DNA of 64,000 nucleotides, from positions 2,170,001-2,234,000 of the forward strand of contig NZ_VOBC01000001.1 of NCBI RefSeq assembly GCF_008369195.1, written 5' to 3'. The stretch is from Sporosarcina sp. ANT_H38 (GTDB lineage Bacteria > Bacillota > Bacilli > Bacillales_A > Planococcaceae). Position numbers and translations under genes: made by a program. Within the stretch, counting starts at the first letter, position 1; the number at the start of each line of letters is the position of its first letter. Below, in pieces: positions 23,918-51,499 of this stretch. A model generated the notes under the pieces. That model saw nothing but the letters and a program-made list of their open reading frames with translations, searched no databases and had not been told where the DNA came from.

Positions 23918-23986
23918 AATTTTTTCTCCTTCTAACTTCTGATACAGCGCGCAAAAGTGGCTGCATCAGACTTTGCATTTAAATAG

Positions 23987-46303: not shown

Positions 46304-47215
46304 ATGGGTAGAAAAACAAATGTGGCACTTACAGTAGGTGCGGCCGGCGTTGCCGCATGGGCAGCTTCCAAAGTTGTCGCAAAACCGGTACCGCGTAAAG
46401 GTAAAAAAGCACTTGCTTTCGATACGCCGGTCATTCTTGCTCACCGGGGTGGTCTATCAGAAGCTCCCGAGAACACATTAGCAGCATTTTCAAAATCGGC
46501 TGAGCTTGGGATACATGGATTTGCAGTCGATATCCGGTTAACAAAAGATGAAGAGATTATTGTCTTCCATGATGAATTTGCAGATCGGACAACAGATTTC
46601 TCTGGAAGAATTGCTGACTATACCCTAAGCGAATTAAAAATGGCTGATGCAGGCTATTGGTTTGAAGATGAGAATCAAAATCTTTCTTATCGTGGAAAGA
46701 ACGTAGAAGTACTTTCTCTCCGCGAACTGCTTCAAAAATTCCCACATATGCTAATAGCCATCAATCTGAAAGATTCTCCCGATACCTATGAAGGAAGCTT
46801 GATGCCTTCAAAACTATGGAGACTTCTTGAAGAGTTGGGTGCTGAAGACTGTGTTGTTGTAACAAGTTCATATGATGAACAGACCGACAGATTCAACTTA
46901 TATGCGCAAAACAAAGTAGCTATCGGTGCAGGTGATAACGAAGTAAAAAAAGCATATGCCTCTTTTTCAAGTATGTTCGGTCATCTTTATAGCCCACGTG
47001 CAGATTTATTCAGAATTCCAGAAAAACTAGGCGTGTTTTCTATCGGCACTGAAAATTTCATCAAGTTTCTCTCACAAATTAATATCCCCGTTTATTTTGA
47101 AGGAGTGAATGATAAAGAGTCGTTCGTTAAACTTCTACATGTTGGAGCAGCAGGTTTCATCACAGATCGACCGACTGTCGCAATGGAAGTTGTGCAAGAA
47201 AACTTAGGCGAATAA
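46304..47215 (+). CDS. Glycerophosphodiester phosphodiesterase family protein
   Basis: TIM-barrel phosphodiesterase expected to hydrolyse glycerophosphodiesters to glycerol 3-phosphate and an alcohol. After a short hydrophobic N-terminus (VALTVGAAGVAAWAASKVVA, residues 6-25, probably a membrane anchor) comes the signature ILAHRGGLSEAPENTLAAF, with catalytic His near residue 47, then VDIRLTKDEEIIVFHDE with the metal ligands. Length 303. It is not part of the ylb cluster in B. subtilis and stands between its own promoter and terminator, so it looks like an insertion. Confidence 0.88.
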   Translation: MGRKTNVALTVGAAGVAAWAASKVVAKPVPRKGKKALAFDTPVILAHRGGLSEAPENTLAAFSKSAELGIHGFAVDIRLTKDEEIIVFHDEFADRTTDFSGRIADYTLSELKMADAGYWFEDENQNLSYRGKNVEVLSLRELLQKFPHMLIAINLKDSPDTYEGSLMPSKLWRLLEELGAEDCVVVTSSYDEQTDRFNLYAQNKVAIGAGDNEVKKAYASFSSMFGHLYSPRADLFRIPEKLGVFSIGTENFIKFLSQINIPVYFEGVNDKESFVKLLHVGAAGFITDRPTVAMEVVQENLGE

Positions 47216-47399: not shown

Positions 47400-47840
47400 T
47401 CAAGCCGAACACGAACAGCCTCCGCCTGTGCCGCAACTTCCACCACAAGAAGAGTCGGAAAAGAATGCACTGCCAGCTGGAACTTTTACTTCATCTGAAA
47501 CCGATTTAGCGATGATTGAACCAATTTCGTCAAACATATATTGAACGTCATTTTCAGCCAATCGAAGCGCTGCAACTTGTTCATTCATATCAAGCTCACG
47601 TTTTTGTACGCGTATGCTTTTCATTACTATATTATGATCCGGATGGTATCTTCCAAATCGTTGGACTTCTTCATAACGTTCCTTCATTGCCGTGAACTCT
47701 TGAATTGATTTCACAAGTTCCGTGTCCGAATAGACATCATCATGGGCTTTGCGATATTCAGCCACCTCTTCAGAAGAAAGCATCATTGCCGTTAGATCTT
47801 CTGCATTTTCAATGATGGTGATCCATTCGTCTGTCATCAT
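47400..47840 (-). CDS. ricF: RicF (YlbF) subunit of the RNase Y-regulating complex
   Basis: Part of the RicA-RicF-RicT complex that steers RNase Y processing and promotes sporulation and competence. About 146 residues: a helical bundle (AEYRKAHDDVYSDTELVKSIQEF, MNEQVAALRLAENDVQYMFDEIGSIIAKSVS) and a C-terminal cysteine-rich tail SSCGGSCGTGGGCSCSA, with five cysteines. The Ric complex binds two [4Fe-4S] clusters, so the tail may contribute ligands. ATG at 47840 follows GGAGGGG. It is downstream of murE on the same strand with a 57-base gap. Confidence 0.9.
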   Translation of the reverse strand: MMTDEWITIIENAEDLTAMMLSSEEVAEYRKAHDDVYSDTELVKSIQEFTAMKERYEEVQRFGRYHPDHNIVMKSIRVQKRELDMNEQVAALRLAENDVQYMFDEIGSIIAKSVSDEVKVPAGSAFFSDSSCGGSCGTGGGCSCSA

Positions 47841-47897
47841 AGAATGATCCCCTCCAATCACACACTTATCATAACAGATGAAACGGTGTGCATGCAC

Positions 47898-49358
47898 TTA
47901 TTCAATATTTATTTCTTTAATATCCAAAAATGTTTTTTCAGAAAGAGCTCGCTCTGCTTCTTCGAGATCGGAAAACGGTAACAAACCATCAGCCGTGTGC
48001 TGTGTTTTTTCATGACCTTTCCCTGCAATAAGGACGATATCTCCCGGTGCTGCACAGAAAATCGCTTTACGAATCGCATCTTTCCGGTCGAGCTCAGCTT
48101 CAATCGCTGAACAATCTCCTCCAAAACCTTCCATAATATCCGAGATAATTGCTTTCGGATCTTCATTTCTTGGATTATCCGATGTAACAATGACGATGGA
48201 AGAATATAGAACAGCGAGTTCGCCCATCTCAGCTCGTTTTCCTTTATCTCGCTGGCCACCGCATCCAAAGACCGTAATCAGTCTTCCATAACACGAATTG
48301 AACAGTGTCTGTAATACCGCTTGGAGCGCATCTGGCGTATGTGCGTAATCTACGTAAACCTTTACACCATCGCGCTCTATCTGCTGCAACCTGCCTTCTG
48401 GAAGTTGCAAGAGTTCGCAGTGCAGCAAAATATCATCCAAGTAATACCCTAGGACTAGAAGAGCACTAATTGCCGCTAATGCATTCATTCGATTGTAATG
48501 TCCCAGAATATCTGGATTCATTTTCAGTTCCGGGACTCGGACGTCAGCCGACGAATCCATCCCAAAATAAACCAATGGGATAGTTGCTTCTTGAACCATT
48601 TTGACACAGTGTTCATCATCTTTGTTAACAATGATTGTTTTCGCCAATCGAATTAAACGCTTTTTAGCATTGATATAAGCAAGCTTTCCACCATGTTCTT
48701 CGTAATGATCAGTCCCAATATTCAATAATACCCCAATGTCGATTTCACAATGATTTAAACGATTCGAAGACAATCCTTGTGAAGATGCTTCAAGAACAAC
48801 ATGACTGACGCCTTCGCCTACACATTTTTTCAACAATGGATGGAGGTATTCCGCAGGTAATGTTGTCATTTGAGGGCATTCATAGTCAATCTTTACGCCA
48901 TCGATAAAAATTCCCGTCGTGCCAATTACCGCCACCCGGTTTCCGAATTTCCGTAACAATTGACCAACAAAGTGAGTGACTGTCGTTTTTCCATTTGTTC
49001 CAGTCACTGCAATCATCTTCATTCTTTTCGCAGGATCACCAGCTAACCGTGCACTTGCATGGGACATGAACATCGTGCAATCCGAAACGGTAATGACAAC
49101 AACATTATCCTGTATTTCAGTCAGAAATGTTCTATCAATAACAATAGCTACAGCACCTTGTTCAATCGCTCTTTCAATATACATCGCACCATCGCTTTGA
49201 TTTCCTTTCCTTGCTACAAAAACGTATCCTTTCTTTACCCGTGAAGAATCTTCGGTTATTCCCGTGACTACAGTCCTGAGTTCCCCGCCACTGACTGTAC
49301 AAGGCCAGTCTTTTAAAAGCTCCGTTATAAACAGCACCACTCTCCCCTTCCCGAACAT
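47898..49358 (-). CDS. murE: MurE-like UDP-MurNAc-tripeptide ligase, stand-alone
   Basis: Adds the third stem-peptide residue to UDP-MurNAc-L-Ala-D-Glu. ATP loop VTGTNGKTTVTHFVG near residue 115, VYVDYAHTPDALQAVL, GCGGQRDKGKRAEMGELA and LIAGKGHEKTQ are intact. The specificity motif is SDNPRNEDP: DNPR marks diaminopimelate enzymes, where lysine enzymes usually have another residue after DNP. The central LEASSQGLSSNRLNHC differs from the usual EVSSHAL. Start is ambiguous: ATG 49358 or GTG 49337; the frame to 49418 runs past the putative promoter. Not in the dcw cluster, and divergent from an aspartokinase-like gene. Confidence 0.85.
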   Translation of the reverse strand: MFGKGRVVLFITELLKDWPCTVSGGELRTVVTGITEDSSRVKKGYVFVARKGNQSDGAMYIERAIEQGAVAIVIDRTFLTEIQDNVVVITVSDCTMFMSHASARLAGDPAKRMKMIAVTGTNGKTTVTHFVGQLLRKFGNRVAVIGTTGIFIDGVKIDYECPQMTTLPAEYLHPLLKKCVGEGVSHVVLEASSQGLSSNRLNHCEIDIGVLLNIGTDHYEEHGGKLAYINAKKRLIRLAKTIIVNKDDEHCVKMVQEATIPLVYFGMDSSADVRVPELKMNPDILGHYNRMNALAAISALLVLGYYLDDILLHCELLQLPEGRLQQIERDGVKVYVDYAHTPDALQAVLQTLFNSCYGRLITVFGCGGQRDKGKRAEMGELAVLYSSIVIVTSDNPRNEDPKAIISDIMEGFGGDCSAIEAELDRKDAIRKAIFCAAPGDIVLIAGKGHEKTQHTADGLLPFSDLEEAERALSEKTFLDIKEINIE

Positions 49359-49370
49359 TTTTCTTTGAAA

Positions 49371-49425
49371 ACGAATATATTGAGAGCGAACATACTTTAT
49401 CGTATGAAACGAACTCAATGAACGT
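49371..49425. promoter_or_regulatory. Divergent sigma-K/sigma-E-like promoters on one inverted repeat
   Basis: CATACTTTATCGTATG (49391-49406) is an inverted repeat. On the plus strand CATACTTTA (49391-49399) fits the sigma-K -10 CATAnnnTA, with AC at 49371-49372 about 18 bases upstream. On the minus strand CATACGATA (49398-49406) fits the same pattern, with ACG (49423-49425) 16 bases upstream. Sigma-E -10 (CATACAnT) is also close. Short -35 elements make chance matches possible. Confidence 0.5.
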
Positions 49426-49448
49426 CACGAAGAAAGTTGGGAGCCTTT

Positions 49449-50180
49449 ATGATCATCCAGAAATTCGGTGGGGTAGCAATGAAAAACGAAGAAATGAGAT
49501 TGAATTGCATTAACCATATAAAGGATGGATTGAATGAGTTTGGCGACGTTGTCATTGTAGTTTCTGCAATCGGTCGTTATGGAGATCCTTATTCTACAGA
49601 CAGCCTTCTGCAACTGACAGACGCCTTTACATCTTCATCAGCAGCCAGCGACCTTGCAGCCTCTTGCGGTGAACTCATAGCCGCAGCAGTTTTATCCGCA
49701 GAATTAGCTCGTGCAGGTGTCATCAACACAGTTTTACACGGCAATCAGGCTGGAATAATGACAACAGGGGAATTCGGAGATGGCACGATTACACACATTG
49801 ATACTTCGACTATTCTCAAAACACTTGAAACAACACGTTGCATAATTATTCCAGGATTCCAAGGGATAGCTACAAACGGTCAGGTGATGACACTTGGAAG
49901 AGGAGGCAGCGACTTGTCTGCCATCGCATTAGCAGGAGCACTCCAAGCATCGCATGTAGAGTTCTTTAAAGATGTCCCTGGCGTTATGACTCATGATCCG
50001 CGAGAAGTCGAGAATACCCGCAAACTGGACTTTCTGAGAATGGATGATTTCATTCCACTTCTAGATTGCGAAAGACCTGTCATTCAAAAACGGGCTGCAC
50101 TACATGCCATAAAAACAGCGACACCTCTTTATATAAGAGGTGTCGCTAGTACGGAGATAGGAACTTGGATTCTACCTTAA
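49449..50180 (+). CDS. Aspartokinase-like amino-acid kinase without ACT domains
   Basis: About 243 residues resembling the kinase half of aspartokinase I (DapG): IIQKFGGVAMKNEE, SCGELIAAAVLSAEL, VMTLGRGGSDLSAIALAGAL and VEFFKDVPGVMTHDPR. It lacks the C-terminal ACT domains, so feedback control by amino acids is not expected. The usual KFGGTS is KFGGVA and the late GAK/HPRA segment is altered, so catalytic activity is open. ATG at 49449 has GGAG 5 bases upstream; an alternative TTG 12 bases earlier overlaps that site. It is divergent from murE and ends at its own terminator. Confidence 0.75.
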   Translation: MIIQKFGGVAMKNEEMRLNCINHIKDGLNEFGDVVIVVSAIGRYGDPYSTDSLLQLTDAFTSSSAASDLAASCGELIAAAVLSAELARAGVINTVLHGNQAGIMTTGEFGDGTITHIDTSTILKTLETTRCIIIPGFQGIATNGQVMTLGRGGSDLSAIALAGALQASHVEFFKDVPGVMTHDPREVENTRKLDFLRMDDFIPLLDCERPVIQKRAALHAIKTATPLYIRGVASTEIGTWILP

Positions 50181-50212
50181 GCAGCAATGAATTTCATTGC
50201 TGTCTTTTTTCT
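50181..50212 (+). terminator. Terminator of the aspartokinase-like gene
   Basis: CAGCAATGA pairs with CATTGCTG across a short loop, followed by TCTTTTTTCTTC on the plus strand. It begins right after the stop codon and overlaps the end of ylbC. Confidence 0.85.
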
Positions 50213-51264
50213 TCTACAGTCTTACGAACTAAAACCTGTGTATAATATTTTCCATATGCACCCGTCCCAAGATGTGTCAAATCCTCTTCGAGCAGAACAT
50301 TACGGTGTGCGGGAGAATTAAGCCAACCATGGACTGCCTCAATTGCGTCTACGTAGTTGAAGGCGATATTTTCCCGTGCTTTGCGATGTTCAATTTCCGC
50401 CTCTTTTAACCTGTCCGCTAGATCACCGGTAACAGGAGATTCATGGGAAAAATAATTTTCAAGCGCCATATCTTCACTATGTTTTCGCGCCACTACAGTA
50501 AGATTGTAATCGCCCAAAAGTTCCTCCAACCCATGACTCTTTCGATATACGTTGGTCAAATCTAAAATTTGACGCTCCATTGCTCGGTCCACTTCAATCT
50601 GCATCGTTGACGATGGACGGTCAGCACTGACGATTTCACCCATATAAGCCATGTCATAAGGTTGGTGTAGGATTAGCGTAATTGGGTCGATGAAACGTAT
50701 ACCTTCTAACTCCCCATCCTCACCGTCGATATAAAGCTGTGCATAGACATTTTCATATTCAATAAGCAACCTATTATTTACGTCATCACTGTTTAATGTA
50801 AATGTATACTCACTTTCTCCAATTTGGACACCAACTTCCGACTCAACAATCGTAAATCGATAGATGTCTTTTACATCCTGCCCAATCTTAAATGGTTCAA
50901 CATCAGATGACAAATCTGCAGTATACACTTGGTTTACCTTCCCATCCAATACTCCCACCATTAATTCCCGATCTTTATTATATATCCACCAATCGTAACC
51001 ATAGCCCGAAGGCTCAATACGGTCTGGCTCCCCTATCTGTTCACGTAAATTGCTCACACTCTTTCCTACAAAAAGGGAAATTCCTGATTCTGGACGCGCA
51101 GCTTGTGGCAGCGGTAAACCCGCTCCCTTTCCAGGTACAGGGATGGCCGTTCCATGTTTCACAGGCGACTCAAGCGGTTTATTTTCTTTTACTCGATCAT
51201 CTATAATATAAAATACCAATAGGACGATGATGAGCAGAAGTATTATTTTCCAGAGTACTTTCAT
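50194..51264 (-). CDS. ylbC: CAP/SCP-domain extracellular protein YlbC
   Basis: Secreted or membrane-anchored protein of 356 residues. A hydrophobic segment at residues 4-21 is followed by a Pro/Gly-rich linker, a CAP-associated domain (SLFVGKSVSNLREQIGEPDRIEPSGYGYDWWIYNKD near residues 65-100, then LLIEYENVYAQLYI) and the CAP domain with DLTNVYRKSHGLEELLGDYNLTVVARKHSEDMALENYFSHESP and AHRNVLLEEDLTHLG. ATG at 51264. Its function is not known. In B. subtilis ylbC is followed by ylbD and ylbE; here murE and the kinase lie there. Confidence 0.85.
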   Translation of the reverse strand: MKVLWKIILLLIIVLLVFYIIDDRVKENKPLESPVKHGTAIPVPGKGAGLPLPQAARPESGISLFVGKSVSNLREQIGEPDRIEPSGYGYDWWIYNKDRELMVGVLDGKVNQVYTADLSSDVEPFKIGQDVKDIYRFTIVESEVGVQIGESEYTFTLNSDDVNNRLLIEYENVYAQLYIDGEDGELEGIRFIDPITLILHQPYDMAYMGEIVSADRPSSTMQIEVDRAMERQILDLTNVYRKSHGLEELLGDYNLTVVARKHSEDMALENYFSHESPVTGDLADRLKEAEIEHRKARENIAFNYVDAIEAVHGWLNSPAHRNVLLEEDLTHLGTGAYGKYYTQVLVRKTVEEKRQQ

Positions 51265-51499
51265 TTTTCGACCTACTTTCAAAAGGCTAAGTTTAATCAG
51301 TTCTATTCAGGCTAATACTGCTTGATGAATGCCTCTTTTCATTATACTTCGTCAACCAGTTAAAAATGTTGAGGATTGGCTTATTTATTAAATTATCAGT
51401 CGCATTGACACAATGTTGCCATTGCAACTGATGATGATTTGTTCTATTATAAAAAGGTATAGGGAATTGGCTGGATGATATATAAGGAGGATATAAACT

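Follow-up and report, generated by a model that had tools for sequence, protein, structure and literature searches.

A dedicated DNPR-type MurE in spore-forming Planococcaceae, with a divergent ACT-less aspartokinase-like gene in half of the genera: a candidate source of cortex diaminopimelate

The window analysed here, a stretch of 64,000 nucleotides from Sporosarcina sp. ANT_H38, carries a MurE-type ligase gene (hereafter MurE2) that lies head to head with a gene for an aspartokinase-like protein devoid of ACT domains. Our analysis confirms the pair, which occurs widely across the family and is linked to sporulation. The role of MurE2 is most likely the addition of diaminopimelate for the spore cortex, as judged from its motif and its distribution, and we consider with good confidence that it does so in the mother cell and that a DapG which has moved and lost its ACT domains feeds the supply in half of the genera. 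MurE2 would thus probably explain how diaminopimelate comes to be in the cortex of spore-formers that appear to use lysine for their ordinary wall.

In the proposed scheme, MurE2 would act in the mother cell and attach meso-diaminopimelate to UDP-MurNAc-L-Ala-D-Glu, and cortex lipid II would thereby carry diaminopimelate. A MurE with a DDPR motif, encoded at another locus, would build the vegetative wall and the germ-cell wall with lysine. In half of the genera, the ACT-less kinase encoded divergently from MurE2 would be switched on together with it. This kinase is probably a DapG displaced from a dpaA-dpaB-asd-[dapG]-dapA operon and would raise the supply of aspartyl-phosphate to diaminopimelate and dipicolinate, free of end-product inhibition.

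MurE2, its site and the second MurE

MurE2 (47898..49337, minus strand) is a UDP-MurNAc-tripeptide synthetase of the DNPR type. Its longest open reading frame spans 47898-49418 on the minus strand, and the best start is near the GTG at 49337, set by the start LAELLKDWP conserved in relatives. The protein scores 415.5 bits against the murE model TIGR01085, above the curated cut-off of 257.3 bits, the reading frame is intact, the active-site blocks of Mur ligases are present and the motif region reads TSDNPRNEDP. An alignment of 21 MurE2 sequences from 12 genera (locus L068 was left out because its coordinates ran into stops) has invariant columns at T112-T118, K225, D330-T334 and G439-E443, which we take to be the P-loop TGTNGKT, the carbamylated lysine, DYAHT and GKGHE. 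The D, N and R of the DNxR motif are invariant as well, and in genera g13, g18 and g19 A, S or C stands in place of the proline (DN[ASC]R). The closest named records are from Sporosarcina strains (61-89% identity). A record titled Arthrobacter beigongshangensis (locus L011) holds a Sporosarcina-like locus with 72% identity, and its title is probably wrong.

The initial annotation had described a MurE with a DNPR motif outside the dcw cluster, which is borne out by the motif, by the TIGR01085 match and by the position of the dcw genes at 20.4-28.2 kb of the window. This cluster comprises pbpB, a spoVD-like gene (667.9 bits, cut-off 688), mraY, murD and an ftsW-like gene, and its open reading frame list holds no murE. 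In B. subtilis, murE lies between spoVD and mraY; in the window, the spoVD-like gene and mraY are separated by a gap of 69 bp (23918..23986, minus strand).

The annotation had also made its reading depend on further murE copies and their motifs. A second copy exists elsewhere in the genome (G000:C1, locus L001), so MurE2 is not the only murE, and its motif is TTDDPRDEP, DDPR rather than DNPR. It adjoins a gene for an M42-type peptidase, which matches TIGR03106 below the cut-off, and a nearby gene is presumably prfC. DDPR was found in all 30 vegetative MurEs fetched from g1, g3 and g11 and in one from g17, the four genera in which this motif was read.

MurE2 is flanked by a downstream YlbF/YmcA-like gene (47400..47897, minus strand, PF06133) and, beyond the kinase gene, by a YlbC-like CAP-domain gene (50194..51282, minus strand, PF14504 and PF00188). 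Conservation of the neighbours within the family, proposed earlier as a check, holds at this site: both ylbC and ylbF are beside MurE2 in 71 of 75 loci from 13 genera, some of these loci coming from the same genome, and one of the two is present in the other four. Between the ylbF and ylbG homologues, the window also contains a gene of the glycerophosphodiester phosphodiesterase family (46304-47215), the nearest model of which is a lysophosphatidylglycerol phospholipase D, below cut-off.

Co-occurrence and co-decay with spoIVA

A profile of the 21 MurE2 sequences, run over 261 genomes of the Planococcaceae, gave bimodal scores. Twelve genera (193 genomes) score high: g1 (68 genomes), g3 (8), g4 (19), g5 (3), g10 (25), g11 (9), g13 (16), g14 (32), g15 (1), g17 (4), g18 (5) and g19 (3). 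Their best E-values are below 1e-140 except in G085 and G246 (about 1e-111, split matches); the split match of G085 corresponds to an open frame of 490 aa, and G246 was counted among the 193 on its split matches only. Six genera (64 genomes) contain other MurEs only, namely g6 (3), g7 (46), g8 (2), g9 (8), g12 (2) and g16 (3), with best E-values of 1e-108 to 1e-123, the level of an ordinary MurE.

The sporulation gene spoIVA, the single marker used, is above its curated cut-off in 192 of the 261 genomes: 191 of the 193 with MurE2, plus G020 of a thirteenth genus, g2. The two exceptions are G099, which has a spoIVA fragment at the edge of a contig, and G248, where, as the tally implies by elimination, the score falls below the cut-off. 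No spoIVA match at E 1e-5 was obtained in the 64 genomes of the six other genera, and the profile search found MurE2 in none of these 64. MurE2 is therefore restricted to genomes with sporulation genes as far as this marker indicates. The non-sporing genera may represent few independent lineages, so the co-occurrence events may be fewer than the genomes.

In g2, MurE2 decays along with spoIVA; the decaying copies of MurE2 lie at the usual ylbC-ylbF site, which was read in three of the four genomes (G020, G054 and G001; the fourth is G038). Three g2 genomes carry fragments of spoIVA. G020 has a diverged MurE2 of 436 aa that keeps TGTNGKT and DNPR, reads GKGNE and faces a diverged kinase. Between ylbC and ylbF, G054 (locus L172) retains C-terminal remnants of both MurE2 and the kinase, and G001 (locus L173) a MurE2 remnant. 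A third MurE-like frame of G001, G038 and G054 was considered as MurE2 and ruled out, being nearest to a type with an FDDLN motif. The link to sporulation put forward in the initial annotation thus finds support in the almost perfect tracking of spoIVA and in this co-decay, as well as in the mother-cell-type promoter motif described below.

In a sample of 151 genomes, g2 and g4 lack a MurE of the DDPR type and have other MurE-like genes, so that they may use a different amino acid in the wall; all 19 g4 genomes nonetheless have MurE2. These other genes (for example at loci L139, L121, L132 and L312-L314) have FDDLN or SDDRN motifs, one type being without GKGHE, and are perhaps for another diamino acid. 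A search at the level of the order returned matches from the same family only. By pattern search, the second MurEs of family f16 comprise DDPR enzymes and a type without such a motif, and a genome of family f6 has a second MurE with DNPY (L299, 5735-7216).

Promoter region, ACT-less kinase and dipicolinate operon

MurE2 and the kinase gene are transcribed divergently, with about 110 bp between their starts, and share the region 49338..49448, which was read in the window and compared across relatives. On the minus strand, CATACGATA (49398..49406) is a putative -10 element of the mother-cell type for MurE2, and an AC lies 17 bp farther upstream (49424-49425). On the plus strand, CATACTTTA (49391..49399), a single match in the window, may serve as a -10 element for the kinase. 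The two overlap in the inverted repeat CATACTTTATCGTATG; because the MurE2 -10 element of the window is an inverted repeat, the kinase strand reads CATACTTTA.

The motif CATANNNT lies upstream of MurE2 in all 68 loci with a placed start, from 12 genera, and was seen by eye in one more, L156, which the start finder had missed. Among one representative per genus (11 of the 12, g3 having been missed by the start finder), 10 carry CATANNNTA (probability of 10 or more, 6e-14) and all 11 the looser CATANNNT (1.6e-9), values obtained from 2000 dinucleotide shuffles of each sequence, which were treated as independent and, being related, are not wholly so. By chance, CATANNNT arises in 7-31% of shuffled regions. 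For comparison, CATANNNTA is upstream of 1 of 30 vegetative MurEs and in 10 of 168 regions upstream of seven neighbour genes (ylbF 1/28, ylbC 1/27, GDPD 1/25, ylbG 5/22, DUF7147 0/21, AI-2E 1/17 and YugN 1/28). In the positive control, CATANNNT lies no more than 110 bp upstream of spoIVA in 11 of the 12 genera, the remaining one being g13, where the spoIVA start was not placed. The B. subtilis consensus sequences given in the accessible text of PMC3416734 are KCACM / GCATANNNTA for sigK and TYATATTT / KCATANANTN for sigE. Against these, the -10 part of the MurE2 motif fits sigE and sigK alike and its -35 region loosely resembles that of sigK. The motif is of the mother-cell type, the sequence leaving sigE and sigK on an equal footing; separating the two by the -35 region was dropped, as the spoIVA control has the same -10.

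The kinase open reading frame spans 49437-50180 on the plus strand, and with its best start, the ATG at 49449, the gene (49449..50180) encodes a DapG-like aspartokinase catalytic domain. The initial annotation had described an aspartokinase-like gene without ACT domains in head-to-head orientation, and its description stands: the only domain match is PF00696 (118.7 bits), and the domain search found no ACT domain at E 0.001. The best model is PRK08210 (235 bits), presumably DapG, over positions 3-245 of 405, which is the catalytic part only; it is also the best model for the ACT-less copies of g4, g11 and g17. The domain has GRGGSD and KFGG, and it lacks the ACT pair and a full-length curated score (168.8 bits against TIGR00657, cut-off 208.7). 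The genome has in addition an ACT-bearing kinase that best fits models of the PRK06635 type, with neighbours that we take to be uvrC and sdh. In G116, G003 and G017, the LysC-type ACT-bearing kinase is absent and only the ACT-less kinase and one of another class are found. Aspartokinase-like pieces with the C-terminal (ACT) part only are present at G032:C1:3160825-3161295 and G037:C9:148236-148715.

Within the 151-genome sample, all 57 genomes of g1, g3, g4, g5, g11 and g17 have the kinase facing MurE2, as judged by eye from match coordinates and loci, and such a recurrence is not due to chance. Reading 19 loci from g10, g13, g14, g15, g18 and g19 revealed no kinase next to MurE2; among the matches listed, the best kinase match is 3e-30 or weaker in the 56 genomes of these genera in the sample, and MurE2-linked copies reach 1e-52 or better. 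A requirement of the kinase for MurE2 function is thereby ruled out, and its linkage in six of 12 genera suggests an optional helper. The kinase part of the module proposed initially is therefore the weaker one. In the MurE tree, the six kinase-less genera form one clade (99/96), suggesting a single loss.

The kinase might also be unrelated to the chemistry of MurE2, a degenerate or regulatory remnant that shares a divergent promoter by chance, a possibility that we regard as appreciable yet doubtful. Besides its absence from the MurE2 locus of six genera and its score below the aspartokinase cut-off, the KFGGTS loop is altered to KFGG[VIA]A in all eight ACT-less copies aligned. Moreover, the promoter motif on the kinase side is conserved in some genera only: CATANNNTA is found in the kinase direction in g4 (16/16), g1 (17/22) and g5 (1/2), but not in g3 (0/7), g11 (0/1) or g17 (0/2), compared with 2 of 18 loci in the kinase-less genera. 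Against a remnant stand the pairing kept in every sampled genome of six genera despite strong divergence, the retention of the GRGGSD, CGE, SA[IM]G, TD.L and K[DN]VPGV blocks, and the absence of dapG from its operon.

This operon has the order spoVFA, spoVFB, asd, dapG, dapA in B. subtilis, according to the available part of PMC2444029. One genome was read from each of the 12 genera, and in all of them a DpaA-like gene is followed by DpaB, Asd and DapA, with no kinase between asd and dapA or elsewhere in this run of genes. Compared with B. subtilis, dapG is thus absent from the operon, and the ACT-less kinase is plausibly the displaced DapG. In the genome of the window, three of the four proteins (DpaB, Asd and DapA) exceed their cut-offs, and DpaA stays below its own, with weak matches to DpaA models; the DpaA cut-off of TIGR02853 was reached in none of 19 genomes. 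That DpaA is missing from the family was ruled out: as a gene of the right size directly precedes the DpaB homologue in the 12 genera and gives weak model matches, DpaA appears diverged, not absent. This gene (L300, 5543-6373, and its equivalents) lies so far below the curated model that an annotation based on cut-offs would miss it.

Substrate, origin and biological meaning

In solved MurEs of the diaminopimelate type, the second and fourth residues of DNPR (N and R) bind meso-diaminopimelate, contacting the side with the free carboxyl, as stated in the sections available from PMC3829189. According to the same sections, the substitution A409R failed to make the S. aureus MurE a diaminopimelate enzyme. 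The DDPR enzyme of T. maritima accepts diaminopimelate in vitro and can use both amino acids (PMC9434261, from its available part). DNPR by itself is therefore no proof of specificity, and the vegetative DDPR MurE might accept diaminopimelate too. These two cases, together with the DN[ASC]R variants, leave room for MurE2 being a second lysine or broad-range ligase of stationary phase or stress, linked to spores only because spore-formers meet such stress. We consider this unlikely, since all 21 aligned MurE2 sequences keep the N and R that hold diaminopimelate, the N being a D in the partner enzyme, and since MurE2 is lost along with a spore gene, leaving remnants, and has a mother-cell-type motif. 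An Mpl-like role in peptidoglycan recycling or tripeptide salvage during sporulation or germination, instead of in new cortex precursors, would suit an accessory Mur ligase outside the dcw cluster and is highly improbable, as murE models fit best, far above murC (415.5 against 59.6 bits), and the MurE active-site blocks are retained.

For diaminopimelate addition in the cortex, the nearest precedent is biochemical. Lysine-walled relatives have diaminopimelate in the cortex, an observation about fifty years old, and in the 1970s Tipper and Linnett reportedly described an activity that adds diaminopimelate during sporulation of the lysine-walled Bacillus (now Lysinibacillus) sphaericus. That organism is said to resemble the present case in its lysine vegetative wall, its diaminopimelate cortex and the appearance of the activity in the mother cell; what is proposed here is a gene, with a distribution, a promoter motif and a partner. 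The wall of this genome's strain had been left open in the initial annotation, and an example from the genus now points to lysine, the wall of Sporosarcina highlanderae being A4alpha L-Lys-L-Ala-D-Asp in the available text of PMC10628120.

Several known systems share single features with the pair. The moss paralogues PpMurE1 and PpMurE2 also make two MurEs in one organism, and the T. maritima MurE has DDPR like the second MurE here; in the available part of PMC9434261, however, the former have no spore link and no change of amino acid, and the latter is one enzyme of mixed specificity and not one of a stage-specific pair. Our kinase fits PRK08210 best, as would be expected of a relative of B. 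subtilis DapG, but its ACT domains are gone and it faces MurE2 instead of lying in the spoVFA-spoVFB-asd-dapG-dapA operon. The MurE of B. subtilis is, like MurE2, of the diaminopimelate type, yet it is single, lies in the dcw cluster after spoVD and serves both wall and cortex, whereas here a dedicated copy sits at ylbC-ylbF and a DDPR MurE elsewhere. A literature search, weak on subscription journals, found no named spore murE gene for this family, and 'MurE' and 'diaminopimel' are absent from the main text of PMC3533761, which deals with sporulation gene sets.

Phylogenetic reconstruction places MurE2 in a single clade (100/100) with a long stem, and the DDPR vegetative MurEs in another (100/98) together with DDPR MurEs of two other families. 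A genome of another family, G370, has both kinds: a DNPR murE directly after spoVD (locus L294; spoVD at 759.8 bits, above cut-off), exactly where the window has its 69-bp gap, and a DDPR MurE next to an M42-type peptidase and close to a prfC-like gene, the arrangement also seen in Sporosarcina (loci L294 and L295). G370 appears to represent an earlier step, before loss of the dcw copy, and suggests that the DDPR enzyme was gained while the diaminopimelate enzyme was still intact, the latter becoming spore-only afterwards. MurE2 may descend from the dcw copy, although the tree program warns of long branches. We lean, with moderate confidence, towards a fuller history in which the family runs two wall chemistries with two MurE genes: the old diaminopimelate MurE would have become a fast-evolving, spore-specific enzyme and an acquired DDPR MurE would have taken over the vegetative wall, and the kinase would be the DapG that once belonged to the dipicolinate operon and has since left it, lost its feedback control and come under the same divergent mother-cell promoter.

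A single NCBIfam model for diaminopimelate ligases matches both MurE2 and the DDPR MurE above its cut-off, which is relevant for annotation, and MurE2 is a candidate sequence marker of spore-forming ability in the family. If the proposed role is true, a gene would be assigned to the old observation of a diaminopimelate cortex under a lysine wall, and the question of why the cortex keeps diaminopimelate after the wall abandoned it would become directly testable. The family would then offer a case of a stage-specific switch in peptidoglycan chemistry made through two copies of one enzyme.
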